Assembly (NCBI RefSeq): GCF_003602005.1
Contig: NZ_QZWD01000004.1
Coordinates: 186,001-250,000 of the forward strand
Length of the DNA stretch: 64,000 bases
Source: Salinisphaera sp. Q1T1-3
GTDB taxonomy: Bacteria > Pseudomonadota > Gammaproteobacteria > Nevskiales > Salinisphaeraceae
Direction of reading: 5' to 3'
Shown here: positions 13,006 to 61,720 of the stretch, in pieces
How positions within the stretch are numbered: the first letter of the stretch is position 1
How the letters are laid out: every line of letters begins with the position of its first letter
The notes under the pieces: model-generated
Told to the model about the DNA's origin: nothing
The model's database searches: none
The model's input: only the letters and a program-made list of their open reading frames with translations
Position numbers and translations under genes: made by a program

Positions 13006-13156
13006 AGGCCTGTTGAGGTCTCGTTCGAGCGCCGCGTCGGAGACCGCAAATCGCGTCCGGCAAGGCGCGGGTTGCCGATCGTGGCGTGCCACGATCCAGA
13101 CCGGCAACGCCGCAGGGCGCGCTTGGCGCGGACTCGCACGAAACATCAACAGGCCC
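13006..13156. repeat. Dispersed inverted-repeat element, copy B
   Basis: About 151 bp bounded by AGGCCTGTTGAGGTCTCGT on the left and the complement of GGGCCTGTTGATGTTTCGT on the right, with TA directly outside each end. It contains a 9-bp palindrome (GATCGTGGC / GCCACGATC, 13077-13096) also found in copies D and F. The inner parts present in E and F are deleted. On the right, TA plus the element's terminal G make the TAG stop of the adjacent lipoprotein gene. Confidence 0.85.
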
Positions 13157-13800
13157 TAGTGGCGATAGAATCGCTTGTCGAGCAGGGCATTGATCTCGTC
13201 GAACAGATCGGCGAAATGCGTCGAGGCATCCTGCATGATCTTCGACAGCGCCGGATTGGGCTCCTGTTCGGCCAATACCTGTGTCAGATAGCGTTCCTGA
13301 TCGGCAACGCCGAGCAGCCGAAGCAACACGCCCCGCTCGAATGCGGCTCCGCTCTGGCCGACGAGCGGCGCGAATCGTTTCAGCGTACCGTTGCGTTGTG
13401 CGGTGTGGGCATCGTCGATGATCGGCGGTGTGGTCGTGCGTTTCAGATTCATCGCCGGGAACTGTTCGGCCAGCTTCTCCAGGCGATCGGCCAGCTGGCC
13501 GCTGTAGTCCGTGAGATCACCGACGACGTTCTGCACATCGTCCGACTCGATCTTGACGTAGAAGATCCGATCGACCTGGGACAAGCCGCGTAGCTGCTTG
13601 TGCAGCGCGCTGTAGCCGTCGTTGAGCTTATCGCGCCGGCTTTCATTCGCAAAGACGTGTCCCAGCGGATCATCGCTGCGGGCCGTTTCCGTGTCGCCGG
13701 ACTTCGAGCCGGTCGCCTGCCAGGTGGCGCAGCCACTCGGCCCGAGCATTGTCAGGCCGAGCACCGCGATACAGAGCGTGGTCCGTGTGAGCTGTCGCAT
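13156..13800 (-). CDS. Predicted lipoprotein of unknown function
   Basis: The 214-residue product begins with a lipoprotein signal (MRQLTRTTLCIAVLGLT, lipobox PSGC near residue 24) and continues as a soluble, mostly helical domain. I do not recognise a family. The ATG at 13800 is used because it starts the signal peptide cleanly. The stop codon TAG is formed jointly with the end of repeat copy B. It follows the sugar porter gene on the same strand after 35 bases and may be the last gene of that transcript. Confidence 0.6.
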   Translation of the reverse strand: MRQLTRTTLCIAVLGLTMLGPSGCATWQATGSKSGDTETARSDDPLGHVFANESRRDKLNDGYSALHKQLRGLSQVDRIFYVKIESDDVQNVVGDLTDYSGQLADRLEKLAEQFPAMNLKRTTTPPIIDDAHTAQRNGTLKRFAPLVGQSGAAFERGVLLRLLGVADQERYLTQVLAEQEPNPALSKIMQDASTHFADLFDEINALLDKRFYRH

Positions 13801-13835
13801 CGCACCAGCATACGCCTCGAGCCGCGCCTTCGTCG

Positions 13836-15248
13836 TCATCCAGTCCGGGCGGGTGCCGGCGCACTCTTGTCACGCGGGAAGAATTGGCCGGCTTTCAGAT
13901 CGGCTTCGATCTGCTCGAGCGAGCGGCCCTTGGTTTCCGGGATATAGCGGATCACGAATACCACGGCGATGGCACTGATGATGGCATAGAGCCAGAACGC
14001 ACCGGACGTGCCCAGGCTATTGATCAGCGTCAGCGTGGTCAGCGTGACCAGCAGATCGAAGCCCCAGTGGGAGAACGCACCGACCGAGGCGCCCTTGCCG
14101 CGCACGAATAACGGATAGACCTCGGCATTGATGAGCCAGAGCGCGACGCCGAAACTGCAGTTCAGCGCCATGTAGATCCCCATGCAGGCGATCAGCAGAT
14201 ACTGCAGGCCGGCCGACTGGGGCATCCCGCCGGTGAACAGAATGGCCATCACGGCCATGGCCACGGCCGAACCCGGCACCATCCAGAGCAGGAAGCGACG
14301 ACGCCCGATACGATCGACCATCAGAATCCCGAACACGGTGCTGATATTGACCAGGACGATGGCGCCGATGGAGGCCAGAATCGAGGCGTTGTCGCCGAAC
14401 CCGGCCTGCGAGAGGATCGTCGGTGCGTAGTAGAGCAGCGCATTGTTACCCGTGATCTGCGAAAACATCGCGATACCGGCACCGGCGACCAGAGCCGGCC
14501 GAATCCAGGGCGCGAACAGATCACGCCAGCGGCCTTCCGGACGTGCCGAAATATCCTTGATCTCGGCGATCTCGCTGCGGGCGGCCTCATGATCGCCCCG
14601 CACCCGATGCAGTACCGCCAGTGCGGCCGCCTCGCGCTTCTGATTGACCAGCCAGCGTGGCGACTCGGGCAACAACAGCATGCCGACCATCAGAATGACC
14701 GCCGGAATCGCCCCGAGCCCGAACATCCAGCGCCAGGCGTCGCCGAGTGCAAAGCCCGTCAGATACGCCACAAGAATGCCGAAGACCACCATGAACTGGA
14801 ACATCACCACCAGTCGCCCGCGCGAGGCCGGCGGCGTGACCTCGGCGATATAGACCGGAATGATCTGCGTGGCACTGCCCGCCGATAGCCCGAGCACGAA
14901 ACGCGACGCGATCAGGAATTCGACCGAAGGGGCGAGCGCCGACATGAACGAGCCAACCGTGAAGATCAGCCCCACGATCAGGATCGAGGCCCGACGCCCG
15001 ATCCGGTCCGAGATTGCACCGGTACCGAAAACACCGAAGATCGCGCCGAAAATGATGGCGCCAGTCACGACCTGTTTGACACCGTCAGTTAACGCGAAAT
15101 CCTTGGAGAGCCCCAGCAAAGCCACACCGATGATGCCCGTGTCGTAGCCGAACAGCAGGCCGCCGAGCGCGGCGATCACCGAAACCATGATGATGAGGGC
15201 GCGGCCGTGCAGCAGCCCTGCCGGCGCCTCAGCGCTTTCCTGGGTCAT
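13836..15248 (-). CDS. Sugar porter family MFS transporter
   Basis: The 470-residue protein has twelve predicted helices and the sugar porter signatures: GYDTGIIGVALLG in helix 1, DRIGRRASIL in loop 2-3, VPVYIAEV-type IIPVYIAEVTPP after helix 4, LLPESPRWL after helix 6, DRIGRRRFLL in loop 8-9 and PETKGRSLEQIE at the end. These proteins are sugar/proton symporters such as XylE and GalP; the particular sugar is not determinable here. The start at 15248 removes a 24-residue basic extension. It lies downstream of the UdgX fusion gene on the same strand. Confidence 0.88.
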   Translation of the reverse strand: MTQESAEAPAGLLHGRALIIMVSVIAALGGLLFGYDTGIIGVALLGLSKDFALTDGVKQVVTGAIIFGAIFGVFGTGAISDRIGRRASILIVGLIFTVGSFMSALAPSVEFLIASRFVLGLSAGSATQIIPVYIAEVTPPASRGRLVVMFQFMVVFGILVAYLTGFALGDAWRWMFGLGAIPAVILMVGMLLLPESPRWLVNQKREAAALAVLHRVRGDHEAARSEIAEIKDISARPEGRWRDLFAPWIRPALVAGAGIAMFSQITGNNALLYYAPTILSQAGFGDNASILASIGAIVLVNISTVFGILMVDRIGRRRFLLWMVPGSAVAMAVMAILFTGGMPQSAGLQYLLIACMGIYMALNCSFGVALWLINAEVYPLFVRGKGASVGAFSHWGFDLLVTLTTLTLINSLGTSGAFWLYAIISAIAVVFVIRYIPETKGRSLEQIEADLKAGQFFPRDKSAPAPARTG

Positions 15249-15383
15249 TCGATTCTTCCGATTTGAAACACGTCTCGCAATCCCGGATCGCGGCCTTTCA
15301 GCGTTGCTGAATCGATTCATTATGACGTGTTCAGCTGTGATCGAAACTCCGCCTTTCGGCTAAGGGGCGCGTTTCGGCGCGAC

Positions 15384-16868
15384 TTATTCGGTCGCGGCGC
15401 GGGCCAGATCGGCCACGAAGCGCGCATAGCCCGGCCCGTTGGTCTCCCCGGCACGCAGAAGATGGGATGGATGCACGGTTGGCCAGAGGGTGCGCCCGTG
15501 CCAGGCGATCGGCCGACCGCGCTCGCGCGTCACCGCGATCTCGCGCGTGAGCAGCGCACGGGCCGCTGTCGCGCCGAGCGTGATCACCGTGGCCGGATTC
15601 ACATGGCCGAGCTCGGCCTCCAGCCAGGGGCGACAGGCCCGGACTTCGTCGTAATCCGGCTTGGCGTGCAGCCGCTGCTTGCCGCGCGGCGTGAACTTGA
15701 AGTGCTTGACGGCGTTGGTCAGATAGATTTCCTGTCGATCGATTCCGGCCTCGGCCAGCGCCCGGTCCAGGAGCTGTCCGGCCGGACCGACGAACGGTCG
15801 CCCGGCCAGATCCTCCCGATCACCGGGCTGTTCGCCGACGATCATGAGACGGGCATCGACCGGCCCTTCCCCGAAGACGGTCTGTGTCGCCGGCCCACAG
15901 AGCGCGCAGTTACGACACAGCGCCGCTCGAGCGGCCAGACGCTCCAGCGAAAACGCCGGGTAGGCCTCGGCCGCCGCTTCAGTCACGGCCGCCGGGCTTG
16001 CCGGTCTCGGCCCACAGTGCAGGGTATCGGTATCGCGACGCGCCGCTTCCATCGTGGCCACCCGACGATCGGCACCGGCGACGAGCTTCGGGATCAACTG
16101 GGCCTCGGGCATGTTCTTCCAGTACTTGACCGGCATTTCCGAGCGCATCGCCGACCATTTCACGCGGGCCGGATTGAAGATGCTCTCGTAATAGGTCTGC
16201 CAGGCCATTTCGAGCGGATCCTCGCCGGGCGCCTGTGCCCGATCAGCGCCCGGCGAGAACCACGGTGTGCCCTCGCCTTCCCAGTGCACCGAGCGCTCCG
16301 GCGTCAGGATCGACCACCGCATATTGGCGAAACGCCGCACGAAGAACCCGGCCGCATAGGCCACGATATCGTGGCTCGGCTCGAACCAGGCCACATAGCG
16401 CGGCGTTTCATAGCCGGCTTCGTCGACGGCACGAAATCGCACGAAAGCCTTCATCTTGTGGACGTCGCGACGCACCGCCTTGGCATAGCCCGACACCGTT
16501 GCGACATCGCTGTCCCCGGCAAGCGATAACAGATGTCGCTCGCCGTGGGTGAGCCGCCACAGGAGCCGGTAGAGCAGCGCCCAGCGATCCGGCGCGCTGT
16601 GGCAGGCCGCCGCCCGAGCCAGCTCGACGAAACGTTTGGGCACACGGATCGTTCCCGGCCGTTCGCTTGCCCGGGCGGCCGCCGCGTCGCTCTCGGCCTC
16701 GAACGAAACAGGCGCCGGCTGCCACCAGATCGCCTCCGGCGGCACGGCCGCCGCCAGATGCCGTCTGGCGGCCCGTTGCCAGCCGGCGAAATCGCCAGCA
16801 AAGCGGACGACCGCCTGATCACCCGCCGTATCGGCGCCGTCGAACAGCGATGGCTGATAGCCGCTCAC
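15384..16868 (-). CDS. DUF4130 / UdgX uracil-DNA glycosylase-like fusion protein
   Basis: The 494-residue protein joins two modules. Residues about 1-250 are the DUF4130 domain (TIGR03915 type), normally partnered with the radical-SAM family encoded at 18420-19697. Residues about 290-494 are a family-4-like uracil-DNA glycosylase of the UdgX class, with iron-sulfur cysteines (CRNCALC and a later Cys in VRACRPW), the GEQPGD motif near 346, the extended loop with KQRLHAKP near 400 whose histidine in UdgX forms a covalent bond to uracil sites, and HPSHLLR near 467. It starts with GTG, overlapping the DUF3307 stop by 4 bases. The role in this cell, tight capture of uracil-containing DNA, is inferred from family knowledge. 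Confidence 0.85.
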   Translation of the reverse strand: MSGYQPSLFDGADTAGDQAVVRFAGDFAGWQRAARRHLAAAVPPEAIWWQPAPVSFEAESDAAAARASERPGTIRVPKRFVELARAAACHSAPDRWALLYRLLWRLTHGERHLLSLAGDSDVATVSGYAKAVRRDVHKMKAFVRFRAVDEAGYETPRYVAWFEPSHDIVAYAAGFFVRRFANMRWSILTPERSVHWEGEGTPWFSPGADRAQAPGEDPLEMAWQTYYESIFNPARVKWSAMRSEMPVKYWKNMPEAQLIPKLVAGADRRVATMEAARRDTDTLHCGPRPASPAAVTEAAAEAYPAFSLERLAARAALCRNCALCGPATQTVFGEGPVDARLMIVGEQPGDREDLAGRPFVGPAGQLLDRALAEAGIDRQEIYLTNAVKHFKFTPRGKQRLHAKPDYDEVRACRPWLEAELGHVNPATVITLGATAARALLTREIAVTRERGRPIAWHGRTLWPTVHPSHLLRAGETNGPGYARFVADLARAATE

Positions 16869-17644
16869 GCCAGCCCCGACAGCGCGGCCCGGGTCGCCAG
16901 CGCCACCAGAATCGCCCAGCCAAAGCTGGCCAGCGTTCCGATGATGACCAGCTCACTCTGCTCGACCTTGCGCGCATATTCGAACCGCAACACCGACTTG
17001 GCGGCGATCACGAACCCGATGGCACCAAACTGGCCGAGCAGCACGAACACGAAGACCAGCACGCGTTCCAGCCAGCCGATCCATACGCCAGCCCGCAGTC
17101 GGTGCGCCGGCTCGTCATCGGCGGGCATGACCACCGATGCTTCGGACGATGCCGGCAGTCCGGACAGCCCCTGCATCAACAGCCCGATCAACAAGGCCCC
17201 TACCCGTGTGGCCACGATGAAACCGGTGACCACGCTCACCGCGCTGACAACCGTTGTCAGCGTCCCGGGCGCCAGCAAACGCGGCCAACCACCGTCAATG
17301 AACGCCGTAGGCAGGGCGATTGCGATACCGGCCAGGCAGACGAGGTGCGCCGCTTGATCGATCGCGAAGATCTCGAGTGCCGCGAAGTCGCTGCGGCGTC
17401 GTATGAGGCCCGACGAGCCGATCTTGATCGCATCGATCACGGCGTGGGCGAGCGTGACAAGCCCGACGGTCATCCACGAGACGGCCCCCGAGGCAGCCAG
17501 CGCAACAGCCGCCGTGAGCGCCACGATCACGATATGCGCACCGAAGACCCGCACCCGTCGCTTGTGCGCGACCATGCCGCCGGTCTGCATCACAAAATCC
17601 GCGAGGACGTGGGCGAACAACAGTACGACGAACGATCGGATCAT
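16865..17644 (-). CDS. DUF3307 integral membrane protein
   Basis: The 259-residue protein has about seven predicted membrane helices and begins with VLLFAHVLADFVMQT, the signature of DUF3307. A His-Asp pair in LAHAVIDAIKIG lies in the third helix region, reminiscent of catalytic or metal-binding residues in membrane enzymes, although no activity is known. DUF3307 genes commonly neighbour satD. The gene is 74 bases after satD and overlaps the UdgX fusion by 4 bases, so translation is probably coupled to a DNA repair-like protein. Confidence 0.75.
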   Translation of the reverse strand: MIRSFVVLLFAHVLADFVMQTGGMVAHKRRVRVFGAHIVIVALTAAVALAASGAVSWMTVGLVTLAHAVIDAIKIGSSGLIRRRSDFAALEIFAIDQAAHLVCLAGIAIALPTAFIDGGWPRLLAPGTLTTVVSAVSVVTGFIVATRVGALLIGLLMQGLSGLPASSEASVVMPADDEPAHRLRAGVWIGWLERVLVFVFVLLGQFGAIGFVIAAKSVLRFEYARKVEQSELVIIGTLASFGWAILVALATRAALSGLA

Positions 17645-17717
17645 GGTCGGATCAGCGCGCCGAGCGCCACATTCGGCCGGACTGAGAAAACAGCCGAAAA
17701 CGACTGATACCGCGATA

Positions 17718-18389
17718 TCAGTCTTTCGCGGCTGCTCTCCCGATATGTCCTGTCACCGTTTCGAAACGCTCGACGGCGTCCTGCAAGGCGTGGCCGCCGG
17801 CCCGCGCAAAATGGCTGGACACGGTCTGTGGCCGCAGCCCACAGGCGTCGGCGAGTGCGGCCATCGAGGGCGCCGCCGGCGCCAGCAGGCGGGCGGCGAT
17901 ATCGGCCTGGCGCGCGGTCCAGGCCTGCGAACGCTCGTCGGCCAGCCCCAGCAGCCCATCGGTCAACTGATCCACACACGAATCGCCGAGTGTGCCGCCG
18001 AATGCCCAGAGCCGATGCCGGGCAAGCGCGTCCAGGGCCTGTCCGGAACGCTCGAACGCCGGGCCGGCAGACGTTCCGGGGCTCGAGCCGCGCGTGCCCG
18101 GCCCGATGCCAAGCGCCAGTCGGGTTTCGCTGGCCGCCACGGCGCTGCGCACGGCCGCCCGCATGATCAACGCCGCCCGCAGCCCGAACACGGCCGGCGC
18201 CAGGACCAGCTGCCAGCCGTCGCCGCGGAATCGCTCGTAGTCGAGCTTTTGCACACCCGGCCATGCGGCGATCGCCCGGCCTGCCGTTTCGAGTGCCTGC
18301 ATCACGGCTTCGAACTCGGTCTCCGATAACGCACTGGATTTGACGATATCGCCGGTGATCACCGCGAGCCGATCGTCGGTCTCTGGCAT
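17718..18389 (-). CDS. SatD family protein with C-terminal helix-turn-helix
   Basis: The 223-residue protein opens with AVITGDIVKSS near residues 9-19 and carries FRGDGWQLVL near residues 54-63. Together these resemble the two acidic metal-binding strands of nucleotidyl-cyclase-like folds, in line with the SatD family. A C-terminal segment, SMAALADACGLRPQTVSSHFARAG written in pieces (MAALADACGL then RPQTVSSHF), looks like a helix-turn-helix. SatD was named in a Streptococcus acid-tolerance operon; its biochemical role is unknown. It sits 30 bases after the radical-SAM gene and before DUF3307. Confidence 0.75.
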   Translation of the reverse strand: MPETDDRLAVITGDIVKSSALSETEFEAVMQALETAGRAIAAWPGVQKLDYERFRGDGWQLVLAPAVFGLRAALIMRAAVRSAVAASETRLALGIGPGTRGSSPGTSAGPAFERSGQALDALARHRLWAFGGTLGDSCVDQLTDGLLGLADERSQAWTARQADIAARLLAPAAPSMAALADACGLRPQTVSSHFARAGGHALQDAVERFETVTGHIGRAAAKD

Positions 18390-18419
18390 GGCTGCTCCTG
18401 CGGGCTCGAACGAGGCGCA

Positions 18420-19697
18420 TCAGAAATCGAAAGTCTGCTGAGCCGCGGTCGGCGGTGCAAATCGCGCCCGCAGCGCCGGGCTGGCCAGCTCGCCCGCCCC
18501 GGCCCGATGACCGGCACAGACGATGAACGGCATGGCCTTGGTCACGCCGGCTTTCATGGCCACGAGGTCATCGAGCCGGACTTTCTGCCAGCGCCGGATC
18601 GCCAGTACGCGATTGACCGATTTCACCCCCAGACCGGGCACGCGCAGCAATCGTTCGCGATCGTCGCGATTCAGATCGACCGGGAAATACGCCCGATTGC
18701 GCAGTGCCCAGGCCAGCTTGGGGTCGATATCCAGATCGAGCATGCCGTCGGCCGGCGTATCGTCGGCCCCGGCCGTGATCTCGTGCGGCGCGTAGCCGTA
18801 GAAACGCATCAGCCAGTCCGACTGATATAACCGATGTTCGCGCACCAGCGAGGTCCGCTGCGACGGCAGGCGCGACGAACTGTCCGGAATCGGCGAGAAC
18901 GCCGAGAAATAAACGCGCTTGAGCCGATACGACGAATACAGCTCGGCGCTGGTGTTCAGGATATCGGCATCCGTGGACGGCTCGGCGCCGATGATCATCT
19001 GGGTCGACTGGCCGGCCGGCGCGAATCGCCCGAGATCGGCCGACTTCGGGCGCTGGTTGGTCACGCGCCTGGCCGCGCGTCGTGCCTCGGCATGTTCGTC
19101 GGACTTTGCGCGAATCCGGGCCATCGACAGCTTGATCGTGCGGTGATCCTTTTCCGGCGCCAGATCGGCAAGCGCGATGCGCGTGGGCAGCTCGACGTTG
19201 ATCGACAGGCGATCGGCATAGCGGCCGGCGTCGGCCAGCAGCTGACCGTCGGCGTCGGGAATCGTCTTGAGATGGATATAGCCGCGAAAGTCGTGATCCA
19301 CGCGCAGGCAGCGTGCGACCTCGACGAGCTGGCCCATGGTGTAGTCGGCCGACTGAATCACCCCGGAAGACAGGAACAGCCCTTCAATGTAGTTCCGCTT
19401 ATAGAAATCCAGCGTCAGATCGACGATTTCCCTGGCCGTGAAACGGGCCCGGGTGACGTTCGAGGAATTGCGATTGATGCAATAGCTGCATTCATAGATA
19501 CAGAAATTCGTCATCAGGATCTTGAGCAACGAGATGCAGCGTCCGTCCGGCGCATAGGCATGGCAAATGCCCGAGCCTTCGGACGAACCCACCCCGCGCC
19601 CGTCGCGCGACGAGCGTCGGCTCGTGCCGCTCGAGGCACAGGAGGCATCGTATTTCGCGGCGTCGGCGAGGATCGCCAGCTTGTCGATCGTATTCAT
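18420..19697 (-). CDS. Putative DNA modification/repair radical-SAM protein (TIGR03916 type)
   Basis: The 425-residue enzyme starts with KLAILADAAKYDASC, typical of TIGR03916, has the radical-SAM CxxxCxxC cluster motif (CIYECSYC near residues 67-74), and ends with a helix-hairpin-helix DNA-binding motif (VPGLGVKSVNRVL near 357-369). The family is widely paired with DUF4130 proteins and is suspected to act on DNA, possibly in damage repair, but no substrate has been shown. Here its DUF4130 partner is three genes downstream and fused to UdgX. A LexA-like box overlaps its start codon, so it is probably induced by DNA damage and leads the minus-strand array. Confidence 0.88.
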   Translation of the reverse strand: MNTIDKLAILADAAKYDASCASSGTSRRSSRDGRGVGSSEGSGICHAYAPDGRCISLLKILMTNFCIYECSYCINRNSSNVTRARFTAREIVDLTLDFYKRNYIEGLFLSSGVIQSADYTMGQLVEVARCLRVDHDFRGYIHLKTIPDADGQLLADAGRYADRLSINVELPTRIALADLAPEKDHRTIKLSMARIRAKSDEHAEARRAARRVTNQRPKSADLGRFAPAGQSTQMIIGAEPSTDADILNTSAELYSSYRLKRVYFSAFSPIPDSSSRLPSQRTSLVREHRLYQSDWLMRFYGYAPHEITAGADDTPADGMLDLDIDPKLAWALRNRAYFPVDLNRDDRERLLRVPGLGVKSVNRVLAIRRWQKVRLDDLVAMKAGVTKAMPFIVCAGHRAGAGELASPALRARFAPPTAAQQTFDF

Positions 19698-19716
19698 GCT
19701 GTCTATTTATACAATA
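19697..19716 (-). promoter_or_regulatory. LexA (SOS) box at the start of the radical-SAM gene
   Basis: Read on the minus strand, TTGTATAAATAGACAG matches the SOS consensus CTGT-N8-ACAG with one mismatch, an AT-rich centre and favourable flanks (TA before, CA after); 16 of 20 positions match the extended E. coli consensus. It directly abuts the ATG and includes TATAAAT, which may be the -10 element, so LexA bound here should block transcription. The transcript may be leaderless or nearly so. Confidence 0.7.
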
Positions 19717-19805
19717 ATCGACGATTCGGATGCAGACGATCGGCCCCGGCTTGCCGCACGCGCGGCGCCGGCCGACAATGACCGGACCACCCGCACGAGA
19801 TCGCC

Positions 19806-21166: not shown

Positions 21167-21175
21167 TGCGGCCAT

Positions 21176-21210
21176 AAAAAAGCCCGATCGATTATCGATC
21201 GGGCTTTTAC
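21176..21210. terminator. Bidirectional intrinsic terminator between arfB and the GH3 gene
   Basis: An 11-bp perfect stem (AGCCCGATCGA / TCGATCGGGCT, 21181-21205) with a three-base TTA loop is flanked by A5 on the left and T4 on the right, so it can serve arfB and the convergent glycosidase gene. Confidence 0.9.
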
Positions 21211-21236
21211 GGCTCACGCCCGGGACGCGTCCCGAC

Positions 21237-23994: not shown

Positions 23995-24139
23995 GGGCCT
24001 GTCGAGGTTTCGTGCGAGTCCGCGCCAAGCGCGCCCTGAAATTGACGATGGGCGGCAAGACGAGGCGTCGCAGGCGCCGGGCAGCCATGCGGCACCAGCG
24101 GGCGACAACGCGGCGCTCGAACGAAACATCAACGGGCCC
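23995..24139. repeat. Dispersed inverted-repeat element, copy C
   Basis: About 145 bp from GGGCCTGTCGAGGTTTCGT to the complement of GGGCCCGTTGATGTTTCGT. The left arm continues with GCGAGTCCGCGCCAAGCGCG and a TTGACGATGGGCGGCAAGACG stretch shared with copies D, E and F; the middle is deleted and the palindrome is absent. The right-hand TA plus terminal G form the TAG stop of the small secreted protein gene. It lies upstream of the GH3 gene, where it may hold or disturb the promoter. Confidence 0.85.
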
Positions 24140-24411
24140 TAGCGATTGTTCCGGCGCGCGTTATCGTCCGGCACCGGCGTTGCATCGTCCGTGCGAATCG
24201 GCGAGTTCAGCATCGCCTCGGTCGCGGACCGTTTGGCGGCCTTGTCTTCACTGGCGCCGCCAAGTCGCTGCTCGGCCAGGGCATCACGCTTGGCCTGCCA
24301 GGCCTGGCGCGCTTCGGTCTCGCTGGCGGCGTTATCCGAACCCTGAGCAAACGCCACCGGACAGATGGCGCTTGCGGCCGCCAGAATGAAAAACACAGTT
24401 ATCAGACGCAT
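24139..24411 (-). CDS. Small secreted protein of unknown function
   Basis: The 90-residue product has a clear signal peptide (MRLITVFFILAAASAICPVAFA, cleaved before QGS when read in two parts MRLITVFFIL and AAASAICPVAFA) and a charged, Ala-rich mature part of about 68 residues with no recognised domain. Its TAG stop is completed by repeat copy C. It is the only gene between the GH3 gene and the LysR regulator. Confidence 0.5.
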   Translation of the reverse strand: MRLITVFFILAAASAICPVAFAQGSDNAASETEARQAWQAKRDALAEQRLGGASEDKAAKRSATEAMLNSPIRTDDATPVPDDNARRNNR

Positions 24412-30551: not shown

Positions 30552-30860
30552 GGGCGTGTTGAGGTTTCGTGCGAGTCCGCGCCAAGTGCGCCCTGAAATT
30601 GACGATGGGCGGCAAGACGAGGCCTAGCTGGCGCCGCGCCGTCGTTCTACGCCCGCGTGCTGGAACGCTGTATTGCCGTCGTGTTCTTGATTTTGGGGCG
30701 CCTGTCCCTTTGGGTTGGGCCGCCCATGAAAAATCGACGATGGGCGCCCGGCGGCGTTGCGAGTCTGGATCGTGGCACGCCACGATCGGCAACCCGCGCC
30801 TTGCCGGACACACGGCGGCCTCTCAACGAAAAGGCGCTCGAACGACACATCAACAGGCCC
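30552..30860. repeat. Dispersed inverted-repeat element, copy D (longest)
   Basis: About 309 bp from GGGCGTGTTGAGGTTTCGT to the complement of GGGCCTGTTGATGTGTCGT. It is inverted relative to E and F: the GCGAGTCCGCGCCAAGTGCG arm is on the left, the palindrome (30768-30787) and TTCGTTGAGAGGCCGCC-type arm on the right. The inner AAAATCAAGAACACGACGG block (complement) is shared with E and F. The right TA plus terminal G make the TAG stop of the OprD-like porin. No reading frame in it is supported. Confidence 0.88.
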
Positions 30861-32428
30861 TAGAATTTATAGAACAGCCGGAAACGGTCGTCGTAGAAGG
30901 TCTGGCTGTTCTCGAATCCGGTGATACCGAGCGTGTTCTGGATCTGGACACCGGCGAGCTTGTCGCTGATCGCGCCGAGATCGAACGTTACCCCCGTGTC
31001 CCAGCCCCAGGAGTGCTCGTCGTGCGTGATCGGCGTGCCGGCCGCGAACCCCCGCGGGCCGTCGTAGTTGTAGAAATTGTGACTCTGGCCGTCACGCGCG
31101 AGATAGCGCACATAGCGCGTGAAACCGCTGATGTTGTCCGTGGCCTGGATGTCGAGCCGCCCGCCATAGCCGTAACCCGGCCCCAGATCGCCGACACCGT
31201 CGTTCATGGTGTCGGTATAGAACAGACCGGACAGATCGGTATAGGGATGCACGACGCCGCCGTTGCGGAAACTGCCCTCGTGTCGCGGCGCGTAATGCCC
31301 CACAGCCGCCAGATTGACATGGGCCGTGCGCACACCGAACTTGGCGCCGTAGACCTGGGCATCGACGTTGCCCAGGCGCGCCGCGCCGGCCTCGGTCTCG
31401 TGCACGTACTGAACACGGGCATATGGTCGGATGCCCGAAAAATTCTCGCCGCCCAGCAGCGCCGGCGTCTGGTAGCCGGCCTCGACGTATTGCAGATCGG
31501 CGGTGTCGTTGAAGTTGTAGTGCCAGACCTGAGCGATGTAGTCGCCGACGTGCGTGCGCTGGCGCACATGCGTGCCGAGCGTGTAGAAACCGCTGGTATC
31601 GTCGACGTAGCGATTGCCGTCGGCGAAATGGTCCGATTGACGGCTTTCGTACTTATACATGCGCGCGAAATAGACACGCCACTTCGGCATCGACGCGACA
31701 TCCCCGGCAAACGTCATGGGCATGAGCAGATCGTTGTCGTAGGACACGGGCGCCTTGCGCTGACGGCTCAGCGTGCCTTTCTTCGTCTTGCCGGTATCGA
31801 AATCCGTGTCTTCGCCGCGGGTCAGGGCGAGCGGGTCGACGGCGACCGAAAACCCGGCGAACGAGCGCGGAATGAAGGCGAACTGGTCATCCGAGGCGAA
31901 CGGCGTATAGATGTTCTGTCGGCCCGCCCGCACTCGCACGCCGTCGATGTTGTACTGCAGATAAGCACGGTTGAGCGTGCGATAGTGCCCGGTCGCACCG
32001 ACGAGGTTGGGGTTGTAGTCAGTCTTGTCCCGCAGCGCCTGGGCAAACGAGAAACCCAACCCCGCCGAGAAGCCGTAGAGCGTGCCCGTCTCGGCGTAGA
32101 TGTTGCCGCCGACGGCCAGCGACTCCAGCTCGTAGTCGTCGTCGGCCTGTCCGTCGCGCTGCCCGGGAAACGGCTGATTCAGGTTGTGATCGCGGTAGAA
32201 GTCATAGAGTCCGACACGCCCGTGAAGACGGATCCCGCGGACCCACTGCTGCTCTGCCTGCTGCAGGAAACCGCCCGCGGCCTCCTCGCCGTCGGCCGGC
32301 GCCTCGGCGGCCCCCGCCGTGGCCGCGATGCCGGTCAATCCCAGCGCGAGCGCGCCCACGGCCGACAGCATCCGGCCCGACGACACACATCGCGTCGTGC
32401 CGACCCGTTCCACACTGCGCTTCCCCAA
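30860..32428 (-). CDS. OprD-like outer-membrane porin
   Basis: The 522-residue protein has a long signal peptide (hydrophobic part MLSAVGALALGLTGIAATAG) and continues as alternating amphipathic strands with aromatic girdles, ending in FRLFYKF with the terminal aromatic residue required for barrel insertion. NRAYLQYNIDGVRVRAGRQ and IPRSFAGFSV fit the OprD group of substrate-specific porins. I take the TTG at 32428 as the start because TAAGGAAAAT lies just upstream; an internal ATG at 32371 is an alternative. Substrate unknown; position beside the polyol locus is suggestive only. Confidence 0.8.
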   Translation of the reverse strand: MGKRSVERVGTTRCVSSGRMLSAVGALALGLTGIAATAGAAEAPADGEEAAGGFLQQAEQQWVRGIRLHGRVGLYDFYRDHNLNQPFPGQRDGQADDDYELESLAVGGNIYAETGTLYGFSAGLGFSFAQALRDKTDYNPNLVGATGHYRTLNRAYLQYNIDGVRVRAGRQNIYTPFASDDQFAFIPRSFAGFSVAVDPLALTRGEDTDFDTGKTKKGTLSRQRKAPVSYDNDLLMPMTFAGDVASMPKWRVYFARMYKYESRQSDHFADGNRYVDDTSGFYTLGTHVRQRTHVGDYIAQVWHYNFNDTADLQYVEAGYQTPALLGGENFSGIRPYARVQYVHETEAGAARLGNVDAQVYGAKFGVRTAHVNLAAVGHYAPRHEGSFRNGGVVHPYTDLSGLFYTDTMNDGVGDLGPGYGYGGRLDIQATDNISGFTRYVRYLARDGQSHNFYNYDGPRGFAAGTPITHDEHSWGWDTGVTFDLGAISDKLAGVQIQNTLGITGFENSQTFYDDRFRLFYKF

Positions 32429-34352: not shown

Positions 34353-34626
34353 GGGCGTGTTGAGGTTTCGTCCGAGCGCCTTTTCGTCGAGAGACCGCCG
34401 TGTGTCCGGCAAGGCTCGCAACGCCGCAGGGCGCCCGTCGTCGATTTTTCATGGGCGGCCCAACCCGAAGGGACAAGCGCCCTAAAATCAAAAACACGAC
34501 GGCAATCCAGCGTTCCAGCACGCTGGCGCAGCATCACTGCACGGTGCCTGAGACGCCTCGTCTTGCCGCCCATCGTCAATTTCAGGGCACACTTGGCGCG
34601 GACTCGCACGAAACCTCAACACGCCC
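34353..34626. repeat. Dispersed inverted-repeat element, copy E
   Basis: About 274 bp from GGGCGTGTTGAGGTTTCGT (preceded by CTA) to the complement of the same terminus, almost perfectly symmetrical at both ends. It lacks the GATCGTGGC palindrome of B, D and F: the gap lies exactly between two AAGGC repeats. It retains a second stem, CCAGCGT / ACGCTGG, around 34510-34530. It sits in the control region between the divergent kinase and transporter genes. Confidence 0.88.
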
Positions 34627-49158: not shown

Positions 49159-49166
49159 CCGGGCCG

Positions 49167-50973: not shown

Positions 50974-51133
50974 AGACAGGCACGGTCCGGTCCGTCCCCG
51001 CCCGCGTGATCACCTCAACGATGCGGCGCGGACCGGCCGCCGGCGGGCAGCTTGCCGCATCCGCCCCCGCTCGGCGATCGCACCGTGAACCGGCAAGACC
51101 GCGGGCCGGGACTGATACCGACGCCGGATATCG

Positions 51134-51730: not shown

Positions 51731-51913
51731 ATCCACGCCGGCTGTAAACAATCCGTCATTGTCTCGCGTTATACACAGCGACGCGAGCCTCGCCCGACCG
51801 CTCGGTCGTCGACGCACGGGCGCGCGACAGGGCGCTGACGCGTTACCCGCGGCTTGCGTCACGACGGCGTCGGCCGGCCTCGCTCATCAGCCTGTGCCGT
51901 GCCTGCAAACGCG

Positions 51914-53975: not shown

Positions 53976-54194
53976 TGCGGCCGGGCCGGCTGTCCGCTCC
54001 GGCCACGGTGCCGCGGCGGCCTGCCGACCGGCTCCAGGCGCGGAATCAGCACGGTCTCAGTACCGGGGCCTGTTCGACAGCCTCGGCCAGCCATCGACAT
54101 TCGGCGGCGTCGCCCACGCAGGCCGCGGCGATACCGGCGGCATGATCGATTCAGAGCGGACCGATCATGCCGCGTCTTCTGCATCGTCGGTGCG
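53976..54194. other. Short intergenic, nothing recognised
   Basis: Convergent gap between the OpgC-like and flotillin genes; no clear terminator or gene seen. Confidence 0.3.
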
Positions 54195-55475: not shown

Positions 55476-55478
55476 GGC

Positions 55479-56873
55479 TCAGCCCTCCTCGGCGGCGCGG
55501 GCACGCTCGGCGGGCTCGCCGGTGCTCATGAATTGCTTGATGCTGATACCGAAAGCCTGCTCGAACTGTTCGAGGAAGTTCACCAGGCCGGCCGGGCCAC
55601 GGTTGACCGCGGCATTCACGCCGTCGTCATCACCATCGCCCATGAAGGTCAGGTTATCCAGACGCAGATTCTTGGCGCCGTCGGCATAGGCATCGAACAG
55701 CGAACCGAGTTGTTGCTGGACGAACAACGGCACGCGTGCGTTGGCGCCGGCGCTGGCCAGCAGCGTGGCCTTGCGCTCGAGCAGCTCGTTGCGCACGCCA
55801 CGCAGGATGTTCACGGCGTCGTTATCGCCGCGCGCCAGGATCTCGGCGGCCAGTCTTTCCTTCTCGGGCTTGAGCGTGACGTCAGAGCTGTTCTTGTATT
55901 CCTGCAGTTCGCTGCGGGCCGTCTCGACCTTCGACTGGGCCGTGCTGCTGGCCTCGTCGATGCCGGCATCGGCCTCCTGGCGCGCCTGCGCGATACGGGC
56001 ATTGCATTCCTGTTCGACCAGGCCGAGGCGCTGCTGGGCCTCGACGATCGCCTCGTCGGCCCGGGCCTTGGCGATCGCCTGACGGCGCTCACTGTCGGAT
56101 TCCGCGGACTCGGCGACCGCGGCCAGGCGGGCCTCCTGCACCTCGACCTCCTGGCGCTTGTGGGCCACCGCCTTGGTCGCGAGATTCGAGATGTAGTCGG
56201 AGCTGTCCCAGATGCGCTGAAACGAGACAGAGACGACCTTCATGCCGAAGCTCGACAGATCCTCGTTGGCATCCTCGAGCATTTCCTGACGGAAATGCGC
56301 CCGCTCGCCCTCGCCGACGCTCGTATTCTCGTCGGCCTCCGGCAACTCACCGGCCTGCACCTTCTCCACGCTTTCCACCATTCCCATGGCCTCCAGCGGC
56401 GTCGTGCGGTTCATCGCGCCCCGGAAGTTGCCGATCATGGTCTGCTGAATCTGGTCCTGAATCTCGGCCCGGCTCTTGCCGAGCATGCGTTCGACCGCGG
56501 TGAACAGGAGAGCCTGGTCCTCGACATCGACACACACACAGGCGGTCGCATCGGCACCGACGGTGATCCCGTTGGCCGAGTTGACGCCTTCCACGCGGAC
56601 GTTGATCGGCAACACGCTCAGGTCTAGCAGCTCAGCGCGATGCAGAAACGGAATGACGATCGCGCGCCCGCCGAGAATCACACGGAAACCGTAGGTCTTG
56701 CCGTTGACCGTGGTCTTGGCGCCCTGGATCACCATCACGTGATTGGGCGGACATACACGGACCAGCAGGCGCAGAAAGCCCACCAGAATGAGAAATATCA
56801 GTACCGCGATACCGCCGGCTGTGGCAAAGCCGAGCAGTGCCGGGGCCTGTCCCGAATCGACACCCATGTTCAA
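55479..56873 (-). CDS. SPFH/flotillin-like membrane protein (first of two)
   Basis: The 464-residue protein has an N-terminal membrane helix (GGIAVLIFLILVGFLRLLV), an SPFH domain with HVMVIQGAKTTVNGKTYGF and ADATACVCVDVEDQALLF, a coiled coil (about 235-350) and an acidic C-terminus. It differs clearly from its neighbour, so the pair is likely to form a hetero-oligomeric cage or raft. Two SPFH genes after an nfeD gene is a known arrangement; the specific client is unknown. Confidence 0.83.
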   Translation of the reverse strand: MNMGVDSGQAPALLGFATAGGIAVLIFLILVGFLRLLVRVCPPNHVMVIQGAKTTVNGKTYGFRVILGGRAIVIPFLHRAELLDLSVLPINVRVEGVNSANGITVGADATACVCVDVEDQALLFTAVERMLGKSRAEIQDQIQQTMIGNFRGAMNRTTPLEAMGMVESVEKVQAGELPEADENTSVGEGERAHFRQEMLEDANEDLSSFGMKVVSVSFQRIWDSSDYISNLATKAVAHKRQEVEVQEARLAAVAESAESDSERRQAIAKARADEAIVEAQQRLGLVEQECNARIAQARQEADAGIDEASSTAQSKVETARSELQEYKNSSDVTLKPEKERLAAEILARGDNDAVNILRGVRNELLERKATLLASAGANARVPLFVQQQLGSLFDAYADGAKNLRLDNLTFMGDGDDDGVNAAVNRGPAGLVNFLEQFEQAFGISIKQFMSTGEPAERARAAEEG

Positions 56874-56927
56874 GCGCTCCTGTTCTCGATTGTTCTCGGA
56901 CGGCCGGCACGGCCGCCACTGTCGTCA

Positions 56928-57578
56928 TCAGGCCTCGGGCATGGCCACGATCAGGCCGCGATCGCTCACGGCGACCACCGCCACGCGGGCGCCCTTGGGA
57001 ATGAAATCGTCGGCATCGCTGGCCGCGTAGCGATCGCAGACCAGCTGATCCAGAGCGATCCGCACGCGGCCGATCTCGCCCGGATGAATGGCGATCAGGA
57101 CCTCGGCCCGTTCGCCGATCAGGTCCCGATCGTGGACGGTGGAATCCAGATCCTTCTGCTGGAACCGAATCACGCGGCGATAGAGCACCGCGGCCACCAC
57201 GCCGGCCGCCAGCGCACAGACCAGGCTGACGAACGCGTTCGCCCCGAGCACGGTGGCCACCAGCCCCATGGGGCCGAACCCCAGACCGAAATAGATCACC
57301 AGGCGCAGGGCGCCCAGCAGCGTGAACAGGGCATGGCCCGAGCGACGCTGCTGTTGCCAGGCGTTGCCCTTGACCGCCACGCCGGATTCACCGTGGGCAT
57401 CCTCGCCGCCGCCACCGTCGTGACCGGCATGGTCGCCCACAGACATATCGCCGGCGTCATGGCCGCCGCCGTCGTGGTCCGCATCGCCGAGCAATCCCAT
57501 GCTCTCGATGGCAATGACACCCAGCGCAAAGACCGTGGCGAAAAGATAGATGCCTTGTAGCAAGACCGGCAGCGACAT
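56928..57578 (-). CDS. NfeD-like membrane protein with His/Asp-rich loop
   Basis: The 216-residue protein has a first helix, a His-Asp-Gly-rich stretch (HDGGGHDAGDMSVGDHAGHD, residues about 44-63), two or three more helices and a C-terminal OB-fold NfeD domain (IGERAEVLIAI, ASDADDFIPKGARVAVV). NfeD OB domains bind or modulate SPFH partners. The ATG at 57578 follows AGGGGGA. The gene leads a three-gene transcript with both flotillins. Confidence 0.75.
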   Translation of the reverse strand: MSLPVLLQGIYLFATVFALGVIAIESMGLLGDADHDGGGHDAGDMSVGDHAGHDGGGGEDAHGESGVAVKGNAWQQQRRSGHALFTLLGALRLVIYFGLGFGPMGLVATVLGANAFVSLVCALAAGVVAAVLYRRVIRFQQKDLDSTVHDRDLIGERAEVLIAIHPGEIGRVRIALDQLVCDRYAASDADDFIPKGARVAVVAVSDRGLIVAMPEA

Positions 57579-57877
57579 GCGTCCCCCTGTTAACGGTGCG
57601 ACGTCCACCGATATTAGAGCAGCGTACGCGAATCAAGCTCGGTCACAACATTCGATCGCTCCCGGTCTTTTATCGCCTCATCTAAATCGGGTCCGGGCCA
57701 TACCAGCTCGCCCCGTGTCATATGGGAAGCGCCGGTCCCATATCGCTGCTTTGGGTGGCCGCGAGCATGTAAAGAGCGCCGCATCGCAGCGATCCGGCAA
57801 GCGGCCGGCCCGGATTGCGCTGCACCCACCTCGCGCCTAAGCTGCATGCTGGGCATTCGGCGACCAGAGCCAGAACA
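57579..57877. promoter_or_regulatory. Divergent promoter region of the SPFH cluster
   Basis: These 299 bases separate the nfeD-like gene from the coiled-coil gene and must hold both promoters. TAATAT on the minus strand near 57612-57617 is the best -10 candidate for the flotillin side; no confident -35 was found. Confidence 0.35.
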
Positions 57878-59032
57878 ATGACCAGCGTGATGCATTTTCT
57901 CGAATCGGCCACGGCGAAACTGGCCGCCGTGGGCGTGCCGACACCGAGCCAAGAGCCCGCGCCGGTGCTCGGCCTGCTCGAACGGCTCGAGCCGATCGAC
58001 CCCGACCGGGTGCTCGTCATTGCCCGCACGCTGCAACAGGCCGGCCACTTCAACGAAGTCGTGCGCACCCATATTCGCGGCCACGACCTGGCCGATCGCT
58101 ATAACCAGATCGCCGAGGATTTCACCAGCATTCGCGAGGATGTCCGTACGCTGGTCAATCAGCGCCAGAACGGCCGACTGAGCCTGTCGCAGCGCCTGCA
58201 ACAACGCTGGATGAAACTGCGCCGCGGCTCGATCGAGGCGCGTTTTCAGGACATCGCCCGTACCTATCGCGACGTGATCGGCGACTCGCGCGCCGCCATC
58301 GAACGCGAGCAGGCGATACTCGCCGCCTACGCCGATTTTCGGGGCGCACTCAAACAGTCGGAGGTCGAGGCGCACGCGCTGCACGAGCAGACCGAGACAC
58401 AGCTGGCCGGCGCACGCGAAACGCTCGAAACCCGGGAACGGGCCCTATCCGAAGCCGAAGGCGACCGCCAACGCGCCGAGGCCGAACTGGCACGGGACCA
58501 GGCCATGGCCGGTTTCGAGCAGGCTCGCAAGAACGAACAGATCGCCAAGGATCTGGCCGAAAACCTCCAGATCTCCTACGCCACAGGCGAAACCGTGATG
58601 GGTCGACTGTCCCAGAGCAGCGACGTCAAGGAACGCGTCTACGAACAATCGGTCGCTTTTTTCAGCACCAACGAAAGCGTGTTCACCGCCCTGGCGGCGA
58701 CCTTCGTCTCGCTGGGCGGCCTGCACGAGTCCACGCAGACGCTGGAACGCATGAAACAGGGCATGAACGAATCGATCGAGACCCTGGCCGACGTCGGCGA
58801 CGACGTCCTCACGGAAGGCACGCGTGCCGGCTACGGCCCCGGTCTGCGGGCCGAAAGCGTGGCGAAACTCGTCGATGCCATCGGCGACTATCAGCAGCGT
58901 ACCTTCGAAACCACACGTGAAATGCGCCAGCTGGCGACCGAGAACGCCAATGAAGTCGCCAATCTGGTCGAAGCCGGCAAGGCTCGCTACAGCCGTCTGC
59001 TGCACGAAGAGCCCGCCGCCGATCCCGCATAA
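57878..59032 (+). CDS. Coiled-coil protein, unknown function, divergent from the SPFH operon
   Basis: The 384-residue protein is nearly all helical, with coiled coils at about residues 150-235 (EQTETQLAGARETLETRER) and a conserved-looking C-terminal part containing RVYEQSVAFFSTNESVFTALA and GLHESTQTLERMKQGMNE. That part recalls proteins annotated near toxic-anion-resistance or flotillin clusters, but I cannot assign a family. It has no signal peptide. The ATG at 57878 removes a 21-residue extension. It overlaps nothing and is followed 3 bases later by the DUF6384 gene. Confidence 0.65.
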   Translation: MTSVMHFLESATAKLAAVGVPTPSQEPAPVLGLLERLEPIDPDRVLVIARTLQQAGHFNEVVRTHIRGHDLADRYNQIAEDFTSIREDVRTLVNQRQNGRLSLSQRLQQRWMKLRRGSIEARFQDIARTYRDVIGDSRAAIEREQAILAAYADFRGALKQSEVEAHALHEQTETQLAGARETLETRERALSEAEGDRQRAEAELARDQAMAGFEQARKNEQIAKDLAENLQISYATGETVMGRLSQSSDVKERVYEQSVAFFSTNESVFTALAATFVSLGGLHESTQTLERMKQGMNESIETLADVGDDVLTEGTRAGYGPGLRAESVAKLVDAIGDYQQRTFETTREMRQLATENANEVANLVEAGKARYSRLLHEEPAADPA

Positions 59033-59035
59033 TCC

Positions 59036-59359
59036 ATGACCGACGCCGATCCGTCCCGCCCCGGCCTGGAAGACAGCCTTGTCGTCATGGACATCGCCGA
59101 TCGCATGCGCCGACGGGCCGATACGCTCGATCGGGCCAGCGATTACGAAAGCCGCCGGCAGGCCCTGCGCGAACGGCTGGAAGGGCTGTACGCCGCCCAG
59201 CATATCGATATCGATACGGCGACACTCGATGCCGCGATCGAGCAACACCTGGCCCGACGATTGACACACCGCCCGGCGCGCGGCCTGGCGGCCGCCCTCG
59301 CCCGTCTGTACGTCCGCTGGCTGGCACCGCGACAAGACCGGCCCGCCGTCGAGCGCTGA
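59036..59359 (+). CDS. DUF6384-like small protein
   Basis: The 107-residue protein starts with SLVVMDIADRMRRRADTLD and contains RERLEGLYAAQHIDIDTATLD, matching the pattern of DUF6384, a small helical family found with coiled-coil and flotillin genes. No function is known. It is packed between two coiled-coil genes with gaps of 3 bases on both sides, so the three are almost certainly one transcript. Confidence 0.55.
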   Translation: MTDADPSRPGLEDSLVVMDIADRMRRRADTLDRASDYESRRQALRERLEGLYAAQHIDIDTATLDAAIEQHLARRLTHRPARGLAAALARLYVRWLAPRQDRPAVER

Positions 59360-59362
59360 ACC

Positions 59363-60421
59363 GTGGCCGAGCCCGATTCGAATGACGCGCGCATCGCGCG
59401 GCTGCAGGCCCGACTGGCCGACAACGAGACCCGCCAGGCCGATCTGTGGCAACAGTTCGCCGACGCCCGCGCCCAGAGTCTGGCCGCGGGCCGCATCGCC
59501 GGCGCGCTGACCCGCAGCGACCGGCGAATGCTCGAACTGCGCGACGCGCGCCATGCACACGGCCAGGCCATCGAGCGCGCCTGGCAGGAACAGGCACAAC
59601 GCGAATCGCGACGCACCGAGGTTCTCGCGGCTGCCCGCGAACCGGCCGAAACCGCGGCGGCGGCCCACGCCGCCTGCCGCGCTGCCGTCGAGGGCGAGCT
59701 GCAGGCCGATGCCGACTATCGGCGCGCCGCCCAGGACTACGAACGCACGCGCCAGACCCTGTCCGACCTGCAGGATCGTCTGACCGATGCCCGCGCCGAG
59801 CTCGAGGCCAAACGCGGCGCGTTCGAGCAGGATCGCCTGTTCGTCTACCTGCTGAACCGCGGCTATGCCAGCCAGCACTATGCGCGCTGGGGCTGGGCCC
59901 GTCGTATCGACGACTGGATCGCGACCATCGTCGACTTCAACAATGCCTATGCCGATTACAGCCTGCTCAAGGACATGCCGGCCTGGCTGGAGGAGAACAT
60001 CACCCGGATCACGGCCCTGAAGGCCACCCACGAACAGGCCTTGGCCCGGCACTGGGAGCAGGCCGCCCGAGCCAGCGAGTTGCGACGCCTGCGAGACCGT
60101 GCCGAACAGGCACGCCTTGAAGCCGAACAACAGGCCGAAACCGTCGCGCAGGAGCGCGCGCGGGATGCGGCCCTGATCGCCGCGCGAGATGACTACCGGG
60201 CACAGAACGATACCTACGCACAGCAGATGCGCGATATCTATCGACAGAGCTTTCGCGATCAGCCGCTATCGGCCCTGCGCAGCCTGGCGGCCCAGACCGC
60301 CACCGACCTCGATGCCCGAGCCGTGGATTCACTGGCCCGTCTACAGCGCGAACATGCGGACCTGTGCCAGCGCCTGGCCTCGCTCAGCGACGACGACGAC
60401 GATGACGATAGCGTTTCTTGA
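59363..60421 (+). CDS. Long coiled-coil protein with poly-Asp tail
   Basis: The 352-residue product starts at a GTG and is dominated by coiled coil (residues about 1-155 and 220-275), interrupted by an aromatic, conserved-looking block (FVYLLNRGYASQHYARWGWA, about 154-173) and followed by a C-terminal DDDDDDD run. I do not recognise a family. Its tight linkage to the DUF6384 gene suggests one complex. Confidence 0.6.
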   Translation: MAEPDSNDARIARLQARLADNETRQADLWQQFADARAQSLAAGRIAGALTRSDRRMLELRDARHAHGQAIERAWQEQAQRESRRTEVLAAAREPAETAAAAHAACRAAVEGELQADADYRRAAQDYERTRQTLSDLQDRLTDARAELEAKRGAFEQDRLFVYLLNRGYASQHYARWGWARRIDDWIATIVDFNNAYADYSLLKDMPAWLEENITRITALKATHEQALARHWEQAARASELRRLRDRAEQARLEAEQQAETVAQERARDAALIAARDDYRAQNDTYAQQMRDIYRQSFRDQPLSALRSLAAQTATDLDARAVDSLARLQREHADLCQRLASLSDDDDDDDSVS

Positions 60422-60519
60422 GCGCCGGCGTGATTGCCACCACCGCATTCGAACGCCATCGAGTCGATATCCAGCCTCCCGAAACGCCGCGCCCGGGCGG
60501 CCAACTCCCCAGCGAGATT

Positions 60520-60547
60520 GAACTTTTGCCGCGAACGTCTGTTTAAA
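60520..60547 (+). promoter_or_regulatory. Possible sigma-E-type promoter before the DUF2076 gene
   Basis: GAACTT at 60520-60525 matches the sigma-E -35 element and is followed after 16 bases by TTTAAA, a loose fit to the -10. It lies 55 bases before the start codon. Suggestive only. Confidence 0.3.
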
Positions 60548-60601
60548 GACCAAGGACGTTCAATCACGCCGCCGGCCACAGCCCGGCGCAGGAGATCGGC
60601 A

Positions 60602-61249
60602 ATGGAATCTCGGGAGAAACAGACGATCGACAGCCTGTTCGACCGGCTCGAACAGGCCGAAACACAGACCGGCCCACGCGATACGCAGGCCGAGGATCAC
60701 ATCGCTGCGCGCGTGCGCGAACAGCCCCACGCCCCGTATTACATGGCCCAGGCCATGCTCGTGCAGGAAGCCGCCCTCAAGAAACTCCATGCCCGAGTCG
60801 CCAACCTCGAACAGCGACTGACAACAGCCGAGGGCAACAGCCACAGCCCGTCGCATCGCAGTGGTCTGCTCGCCTCCCTGTTCGGAGGCCGCCCGTCAAC
60901 CACGCCCCGGGCCGGCCGCGAGATGCCCGAGCCACGGTCACAGCCGCCCGGGGTCGCGCGCGACAGCGGCTTTCTCGGCGGCGCGCTGCAAACCGCGACC
61001 GGTGTGGCCGGCGGTATCATGGCCGCCGACATGCTGACCGGACTGTTCCACCACAGCCAGCCCGACGAGATCGTCGACATCATCAACGAACCGGCACCCG
61101 GCGACAGCGATTTCAGCGATGCCGGGTTCGATGGCGCCGGCGATGCCAACGACGGGTCGAATACGAACGTTGCCGATTTCAACGATCCGGGCTATGACCC
61201 GGGCGACGATACATTCGGCGGCTGGGGCGACGACGACAGCTTTCTCTAA
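60602..61249 (+). CDS. DUF2076 family protein
   Basis: The 215-residue protein fits DUF2076: an N-terminal helix pair (KQTIDSLFDRLEQAE, PYYMAQAMLVQEAALKKL), a Pro/Gly-rich linker, a glycine-rich hydrophobic helix (GFLGGALQTATGVAGGIMAADML) and an acidic Asp/Asn-rich tail. The family is uncharacterised and often near envelope genes. AGGAG precedes the ATG. It completes the plus-strand side of the SPFH cluster. Confidence 0.75.
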   Translation: MESREKQTIDSLFDRLEQAETQTGPRDTQAEDHIAARVREQPHAPYYMAQAMLVQEAALKKLHARVANLEQRLTTAEGNSHSPSHRSGLLASLFGGRPSTTPRAGREMPEPRSQPPGVARDSGFLGGALQTATGVAGGIMAADMLTGLFHHSQPDEIVDIINEPAPGDSDFSDAGFDGAGDANDGSNTNVADFNDPGYDPGDDTFGGWGDDDSFL

Positions 61250-61414
61250 CGCCAGGGCAAGCCTTGCGCGGCCGGGTGTTGCCCTGCCCAATCAGCCACA
61301 TGGCGTATCCGGAAGTGCAGCGCCGCGGGGCCAGAGCAGCCAGGCAGCGCCGACGGGGGTAATGCGGCGGTTTGTCTTGCAAAAAATGATCGCCGGCGCG
61401 GCGCACGCGGGACG

Positions 61415-61429
61415 TGTCAACACGCCCCA
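61415..61429. repeat. Abutting remnant of another copy of the repeat terminus
   Basis: GTGTCAACACGCCCC directly left of copy F is the complement of the element terminus. With copy F it forms the head-to-head palindrome CAACACGCCC-CA-GGGCGTGTTG, as if two elements had met end to end and one was then lost. Confidence 0.55.
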
Positions 61430-61720
61430 GGGCGTGTTGAGGTTTCGTTCGAGCGCCGCGTTGGCGCCACAAATCGTGTCCGGCAAGGCGCGAGTCGCCG
61501 ATCGTGGCGTGCCACGATCAAGGCTCGCAACGCCGCCGGGCGTGATTTGTGGCCCAACCCTTCGGGACAAGTGCCCCCAAAATCAAAAACACGACGGCAA
61601 TCCAGCGTTCTAGCACGCTGGCGCAGAATGACACGCTATGCGTGCTACGCCTTGTCTTGCCGCCCATCGTCAATTTCAGGGCGCACTTGGCGCGGACTCG
61701 CACGAAACCTCAACACGCCC
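61430..61720. repeat. Dispersed inverted-repeat element, copy F
   Basis: About 291 bp from GGGCGTGTTGAGGTTTCGT to the complement of the same terminus. It has both internal stems: the 9-bp palindrome (61500-61519) and CCAGCGT / ACGCTGG (61602-61621). Orientation matches copies B and E. The right TA plus terminal G form the TAG stop of the acetyltransferase gene. The rest of the 61250-61429 gap shows no gene. Confidence 0.88.

Follow-up and report, generated by a model that had tools for sequence, protein, structure and literature searches.

Miniature IS5-type elements at TAG stop codons of Salinisphaera: a probable outcome of CTAG preference and loss of insertions within genes

Introduction

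IS5 of Escherichia coli inserts at Y-T-A-R targets, with CTAG in 15 of the 24 sites tabulated, and the part of the report used here calls CTAG under-represented in bacterial genomes (PMC5493358). MITEPsy1 of Pseudomonas syringae, a 100-bp miniature inverted-repeat transposable element (MITE) with six tabulated copies, targets CTAG or YTAA with a 4-nt duplication and is thought by its authors to stem from ISPsy2, an insertion sequence (IS) tabulated under IS5 (PMC3189936, in part). The RUP repeat of Streptococcus pneumoniae targets TA, with IS630-Spn1 as its presumed driver in trans (PMC2229807, in part). Here, we analyzed a MITE family present in a stretch of 64,000 nucleotides of Salinisphaera sp. 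Q1T1-3 (contig NZ_QZWD01000004.1, positions 186,001 to 250,000; hereafter, the window). An initial annotation of the window had described six copies of 28 to 309 bp with shared termini, four of them lying exactly at the end of a minus-strand gene, so that TA from the target and the first G of the element form the TAG stop. Among the open-licence PMC papers listed by our searches, none describing this family was found, and the listed titles and abstract starts revealed no IS5-type elements landing on stop codons. In the part of the review PMC10969869 that we used, the term "stop codon" does not occur.

Results

The occurrence of these MITEs on stop codons is very probably explained by the CTAG preference of elements that an IS5-family transposase would move, together with the loss of insertions within genes. 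A genome-wide search for the terminus, allowing at most 2 mismatches, gave 358 matches versus 0 for the reversed pattern used as a control, corresponding to an estimated 180 elements and extending the family beyond the window. The terminus was present in all 14 Salinisphaera genomes searched, with 2 to 358 matches each, and in 2 of 27 genomes outside the genus, with one match apiece. The MITE family is real and large, and across the 41 searched genomes it is restricted to Salinisphaera.

Junctions were counted in two samples. The first, 346 kb including the window, was taken around terminus matches (the first 100 of the 358, plus 46 places of one exact variant) and leans to contigs C1 to C22; it holds 81 two-ended and 35 lone elements. 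The second consists of the window and twenty 20-kb stretches picked regardless of elements, for a total of 464 kb with 22 elements. Their union comprises 132 distinct elements, 93 of them two-ended. All but one of the two-ended elements of the first sample measure 94 to 321 bp, the 81st being an 860-bp IS; the second end of the shortest, at 94 bp, is weak. The MITE consensus is 309 bp long, and the median identity of the 80 copies to it is 89.5%. Short, numerous, bounded by terminal inverted repeats and in most copies devoid of a transposase gene, the elements are MITEs, as the initial annotation had proposed.

In 45 of the 132 elements, a junction is the exact stop of a predicted gene. Two of the 45, including the 860-bp IS, end both neighbors, which gives 47 stop junctions, only 2 of which do not read TA/G (slash, element boundary). 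The fraction of elements at stops, 34%, was compared with that of non-coding TA dinucleotides, 7.4% (118/1,602), a 4.6-fold enrichment (p = 7e-19). CTAG itself is depleted, with 143 sites observed versus 309 expected in the 464 kb. Among unoccupied non-coding CTAG sites, 39 of 119 (33%) are stops, and comparison of the elements with these sites gave an odds ratio of 1.06 (p = 0.89; interval, 0.63 to 1.79). Because the rate at stops equals the share of stops among free non-coding CTAG, enrichment at stops for their own sake is not supported. The predicted enrichment thus held relative to TA, but pooling the samples left none relative to CTAG. The counts do not demonstrate targeting of stops as such, and the pooled interval leaves room for an effect below about 1.8-fold.

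The target was defined from the junctions. In the first sample, TA is kept in 129 of 197 junctions, and C precedes it in 113 of these 129. TA flanks both sides of 37 two-ended elements, 25 of which have CTAG on both sides. Within the MITEs themselves, the data on duplication length are ambiguous between 2 bp and 4 bp; we therefore turned to related ISs, because 2-bp and 4-bp duplications look identical at CTAG. Among 66 related IS loci, 28 have both ends and 24 of those have TA on both sides, 16 at CTAG targets. At the non-CTAG targets the terminal G is present at both ends in 8 of 8 cases, which argues that TA is duplicated and that the G belongs to the element. The duplication is, as read from these junctions, the 2-bp TA and not a 4-bp sequence, with CTAG as the preferred target, in agreement with the earlier proposal that TA plus the element's first G makes up TAG. 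Full-length IS relatives of other genera were found at stops in 2 of 28 cases, a count that we did not use since the gene model trained on the window is invalid there.

The genome contains one 860-bp element whose ends are nearly identical to those of the MITE (17 to 20 bp at each consensus end align at 90 to 100%) and which encodes a 267-aa transposase in a single reading frame. This protein matched NCBIfam NF033580 (IS5 family transposase) at 248.6 bits, with a cut-off of 110, as well as Pfam DUF4096 and DDE_Tnp_1 above cut-off; no IS630 model was among the listed profile matches. Copies in S. hydrothermalis C41B8 are 91 to 93% identical to it. A second copy in the genome runs off a contig end and is 97% identical over residues 147 to 267, and the congener G005 harbors three copies at 91 to 93%. 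The IS sits at CTAG, and both convergent neighbor genes, which we take to be murI and pdxY (recognized from sequence, with no family call), end on TAG at its junctions. Because an IS5-family transposase is encoded between the same ends, the MITEs were classified as IS5-derived. From the shared ends and target, we infer that this transposase may mobilize them in trans. The initial annotation had left the parent as either IS630/Tc1 or CTAG-targeting IS5; a full-length candidate with the same ends was found, and it is of the latter type, not the former. Within the IS5 family, the IS427 group duplicates TA. Its transposase is encoded by two coding sequences (PMC9241763), against the single 267-aa frame found here. 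The IS5 group is characterized by a 4-bp target duplication, whereas all eight informative related ISs fit duplication of TA.

Several observations weigh against our explanation. The genes were predicted by a codon model trained on the window and not by a standard gene finder. The genomes G007 and G009 have 67 and 106 termini with no detected copy of the IS. We considered whether the MITE interior stems from the IS and rejected this, as only the ends align convincingly; with nothing clear in common in their interiors, the MITE did not arise from the IS by simple internal deletion. In the 464-kb sample, stops account for 11 of 22 elements versus 24 of 82 CTAG sites (odds ratio, 2.4; p = 0.08), and elements are found between convergent genes more often than CTAG sites are (44/122 versus 26/104; p = 0.08), so that a modest real preference for stops beyond CTAG is possible. 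These last two results are what would be expected if the transposase or a host factor directed insertion to gene ends or stops, for instance to terminating transcripts or convergent 3' ends. We consider such guidance improbable, given the pooled odds ratio, the opposite lean of the remainder of the sample (odds ratio, 0.66; p = 0.32) and the lack of any excess in a replicate of 20 stretches of G005 (stops at 6/23 elements versus 5/18 CTAG sites). That the elements are IS630/Tc1-type MITEs inserting at any TA is almost certainly wrong: the TA duplication fits this type, but the transposase encoded between these ends is of the IS5 family, and the frequent C before TA is far from a bare-TA target.

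We also considered that the foldbacks might be retained at gene ends as terminators or protectors of mRNA 3' ends. Most two-ended elements fold stably (z < -3 in 77/93), but the signal comes mostly from the end repeats, since interiors alone reached this value in 24/93; the copy at 30552 had a z of -2.7. With the structure derived from the copy at 61430, 87.0% of cells pair, compared with 35 to 43% in slid controls, and both the number of cells with two-sided changes (98 versus 64.8) and the covariation score (0.073 versus 0.064) exceeded all 500 shuffles. However, kinship of copies can beat shuffles without any structure, pairs with two-sided changes showed no excess (15 versus 15.4 in shuffles), and pairing falls to 53% and 65% of cells in two helices. 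Either end of the element faces the stop (24 and 17 of the 47 junctions, with 6 unclassified), and stops show no pooled excess over CTAG. A role as terminator or protector therefore appears very improbable. The automatic consensus fold was weak, no Rfam family reached the gathering score within the window, and a scan for terminator-like sites limited to 61300 to 61850 found 2 versus 0.6 expected. In an alignment of 64 copies, interior cassettes alternate, such as TGTTYTGCGGC, whose rough complement CAAAACAGCGC occurs only in copies having TGTTYTGCGGC. These cassettes form very stable foldbacks in some copies and mismatched arms in others, which suggests a mosaic family of foldback cassettes rather than a maintained structured RNA.

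Returning to CTAG preference followed by selection, the junctions reveal what happens after insertion. Of 147 non-stop junctions of two-ended elements, 78 retain TA. Among called genes whose end lies in an element, 47 terminate on its first base and three further ones, outside the 45 elements, on its second base at a junction shifted by one base; none runs deeper. With equally fast decay at stops, many genes would be expected to continue into the element. Taken together, TA decay away from stops and the lack of genes running deeper indicate that the stop-side TA is likely held by selection. After insertion, both junctions again read CTAG. Places with facing ends 0 to 2 bases apart numbered four in the sample of this genome and three in that of G005 (ends with at most 5 mismatches), consistent with reuse of the regenerated CTAG. 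At non-stop junctions of this genome, CTAG has decayed to CCAG 29 times versus 14 times to CTGG (p = 0.03); Vsr-type repair was considered as the cause of this bias and discarded, as the genome has no Vsr match.

We then compared the protein ends with those of congeners. Among the matches listed, C-terminus scoring gave 75 rows, 3 of which came from the genome itself and were set aside; the other 72 are from 13 congeners, and some are only 40 to 60% identical and may be paralogues. The stop is at the same codon in 55, one codon away in 16 and two codons away in 1, so that 71 of 72 agree within one codon. For the gene that stops at 13156, each of the 7 scored matches ends a codon sooner, and the GNAT acetyltransferase gene has no row in this scoring. 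At 22 stop junctions with TA at the opposite flank, the sequence there reads TAG in 19, TAA in 2 and TAT in 1. On these alignments, C-termini are largely unchanged by insertion, and the earlier idea that the element restores a stop on insertion stands. In 4 of the 72 matches an element is also present at the corresponding congener stop. Two belong to the same family (a murI-like gene in G005 and an outer-membrane-like gene in G009) and two to another (a ferredoxin-like and an outer-membrane-like gene in G013). The names ferredoxin, Rph and outer-membrane protein are presumed from recognition of the sequences, with no family call.

The other family of G013 was a separate observation. This second MITE family, about 280 bp in length, carries ends resembling GGGCGTGTYGNCATAAGATAAG and was located near 1224-1504 of L202 and near 389-667 of L255, on the stops of these two genes. 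No copy was found in the sample of the Q1T1-3 genome.

In the window, the terminus matched 11 times with at most 3 mismatches versus a mean of 0.02 in shuffled sequence. These matches form six copies, as announced earlier: five elements with both ends and a lone end (Table 1) whose similarity fits the 28-bp copy. All four gene ends reported at the elements were recovered, and the stops of these predicted genes each read CTA/G. The TA target proposed earlier is present at all four, but the opposite flank is CA in three of these elements, and the element away from stops lacks it on one side; only the 151-bp element has TA intact on both flanks. As initially stated, the window holds no transposase: the 8 DDE_Tnp_1 matches of the genome all lie outside it. 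The gene 30860-32371 had no Pfam match; its product may tentatively be an outer-membrane protein, since it ends in Phe and has a sub-threshold porin match.

Table 1. Elements, element-borne stops and neighboring features in the window
Feature	Coordinates	Strand	Remarks
Lone element end	2892..2910	-	Similarity runs ~30 bases, to about 2881; flanked by gene starts at 2737 (minus strand) and 2949 (plus strand)
Two-ended MITE, 151 bp	13006..13156		TA on both sides; own first base A, not G
TAG stop of gene 13156-13839	13156..13158	-	Target TA plus terminal G of element
Two-ended MITE, 145 bp	23995..24139		Left flank CA
TAG stop of gene 24139-24396	24139..24141	-	85 aa; gene call weakly supported
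Two-ended MITE, 309 bp, full length	30552..30860		Left flank CA
TAG stop of gene 30860-32371	30860..30862	-	4/4 scored congener matches stop at the identical codon
Two-ended MITE, 274 bp	34353..34626		Away from any stop; right flank GA
Sequence resembling the end of another IS5-type element	61410..61427	-	Two bases from the MITE at 61430; two similar sequences elsewhere in the sample
Two-ended MITE, 291 bp	61430..61720		Left flank CA; folds over entire length, z about -10
TAG stop of GNAT acetyltransferase gene 61720-62136	61720..61722	-	

Discussion

We propose that the IS5-family transposase would recognize the terminal repeat of roughly 18 bp and move the MITEs, which insert at TA with a strong preference for CTAG and duplicate TA. 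Insertions within genes would be lost by selection, leaving survivors in non-coding CTAG sites, about a third of which are TAG stops. At such a stop, insertion would yield CTA/GGG, with TAG kept because the element begins with GGG and ends with CCC, and the protein would be unchanged. Later, the stop-side TA would be held by selection while the opposite TA decays. Both the mobilization by the transposase of the 860-bp IS and the filtering by selection are what we infer.

The counts show how a short target motif, its avoidance in the genome and purifying selection can together mimic stop-codon seeking. Claims of stop targeting should be judged against free non-coding target sites rather than free TA. 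It may also be that stops serve as reusable docking sites for this class of elements, with the terminal G perhaps kept by selection for neutrality and a modest additional preference for 3' ends. We regard this as conceivable yet rather doubtful; it is suggested because two element families already occupy corresponding stops in several Salinisphaera species. If it holds, IS5-type elements that take TA from CTAG and begin with G would be funneled onto TAG stops in CTAG-avoiding genomes, leaving the protein intact and regenerating CTAG for further insertion.

This analysis describes a large Salinisphaera MITE family together with its likely driver IS. As far as the parts of the sources used here go, the system shares a DDE transposase and a CTAG-centered target with IS5 of E. 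coli, but IS5 makes a four-base duplication, whereas here two bases are duplicated, the G belongs to the element and most copies are non-autonomous (PMC5493358). Like MITEPsy1, the element is a short MITE tied to an IS5-family element and targets CTAG; unlike it, the family numbers an estimated 180 elements, mostly of 94 to 321 bp, with a 2-bp duplication (PMC3189936). RUP and the Correia elements are likewise small mobile sequences in high copy, and RUP is also TA-targeting and presumed to be IS-driven. Stop codons are mentioned inside those repeats, with no junctions on host stops in the part of the source used, and the driver of RUP is IS630-Spn1, in contrast to the IS5-family element proposed here (PMC2229807).

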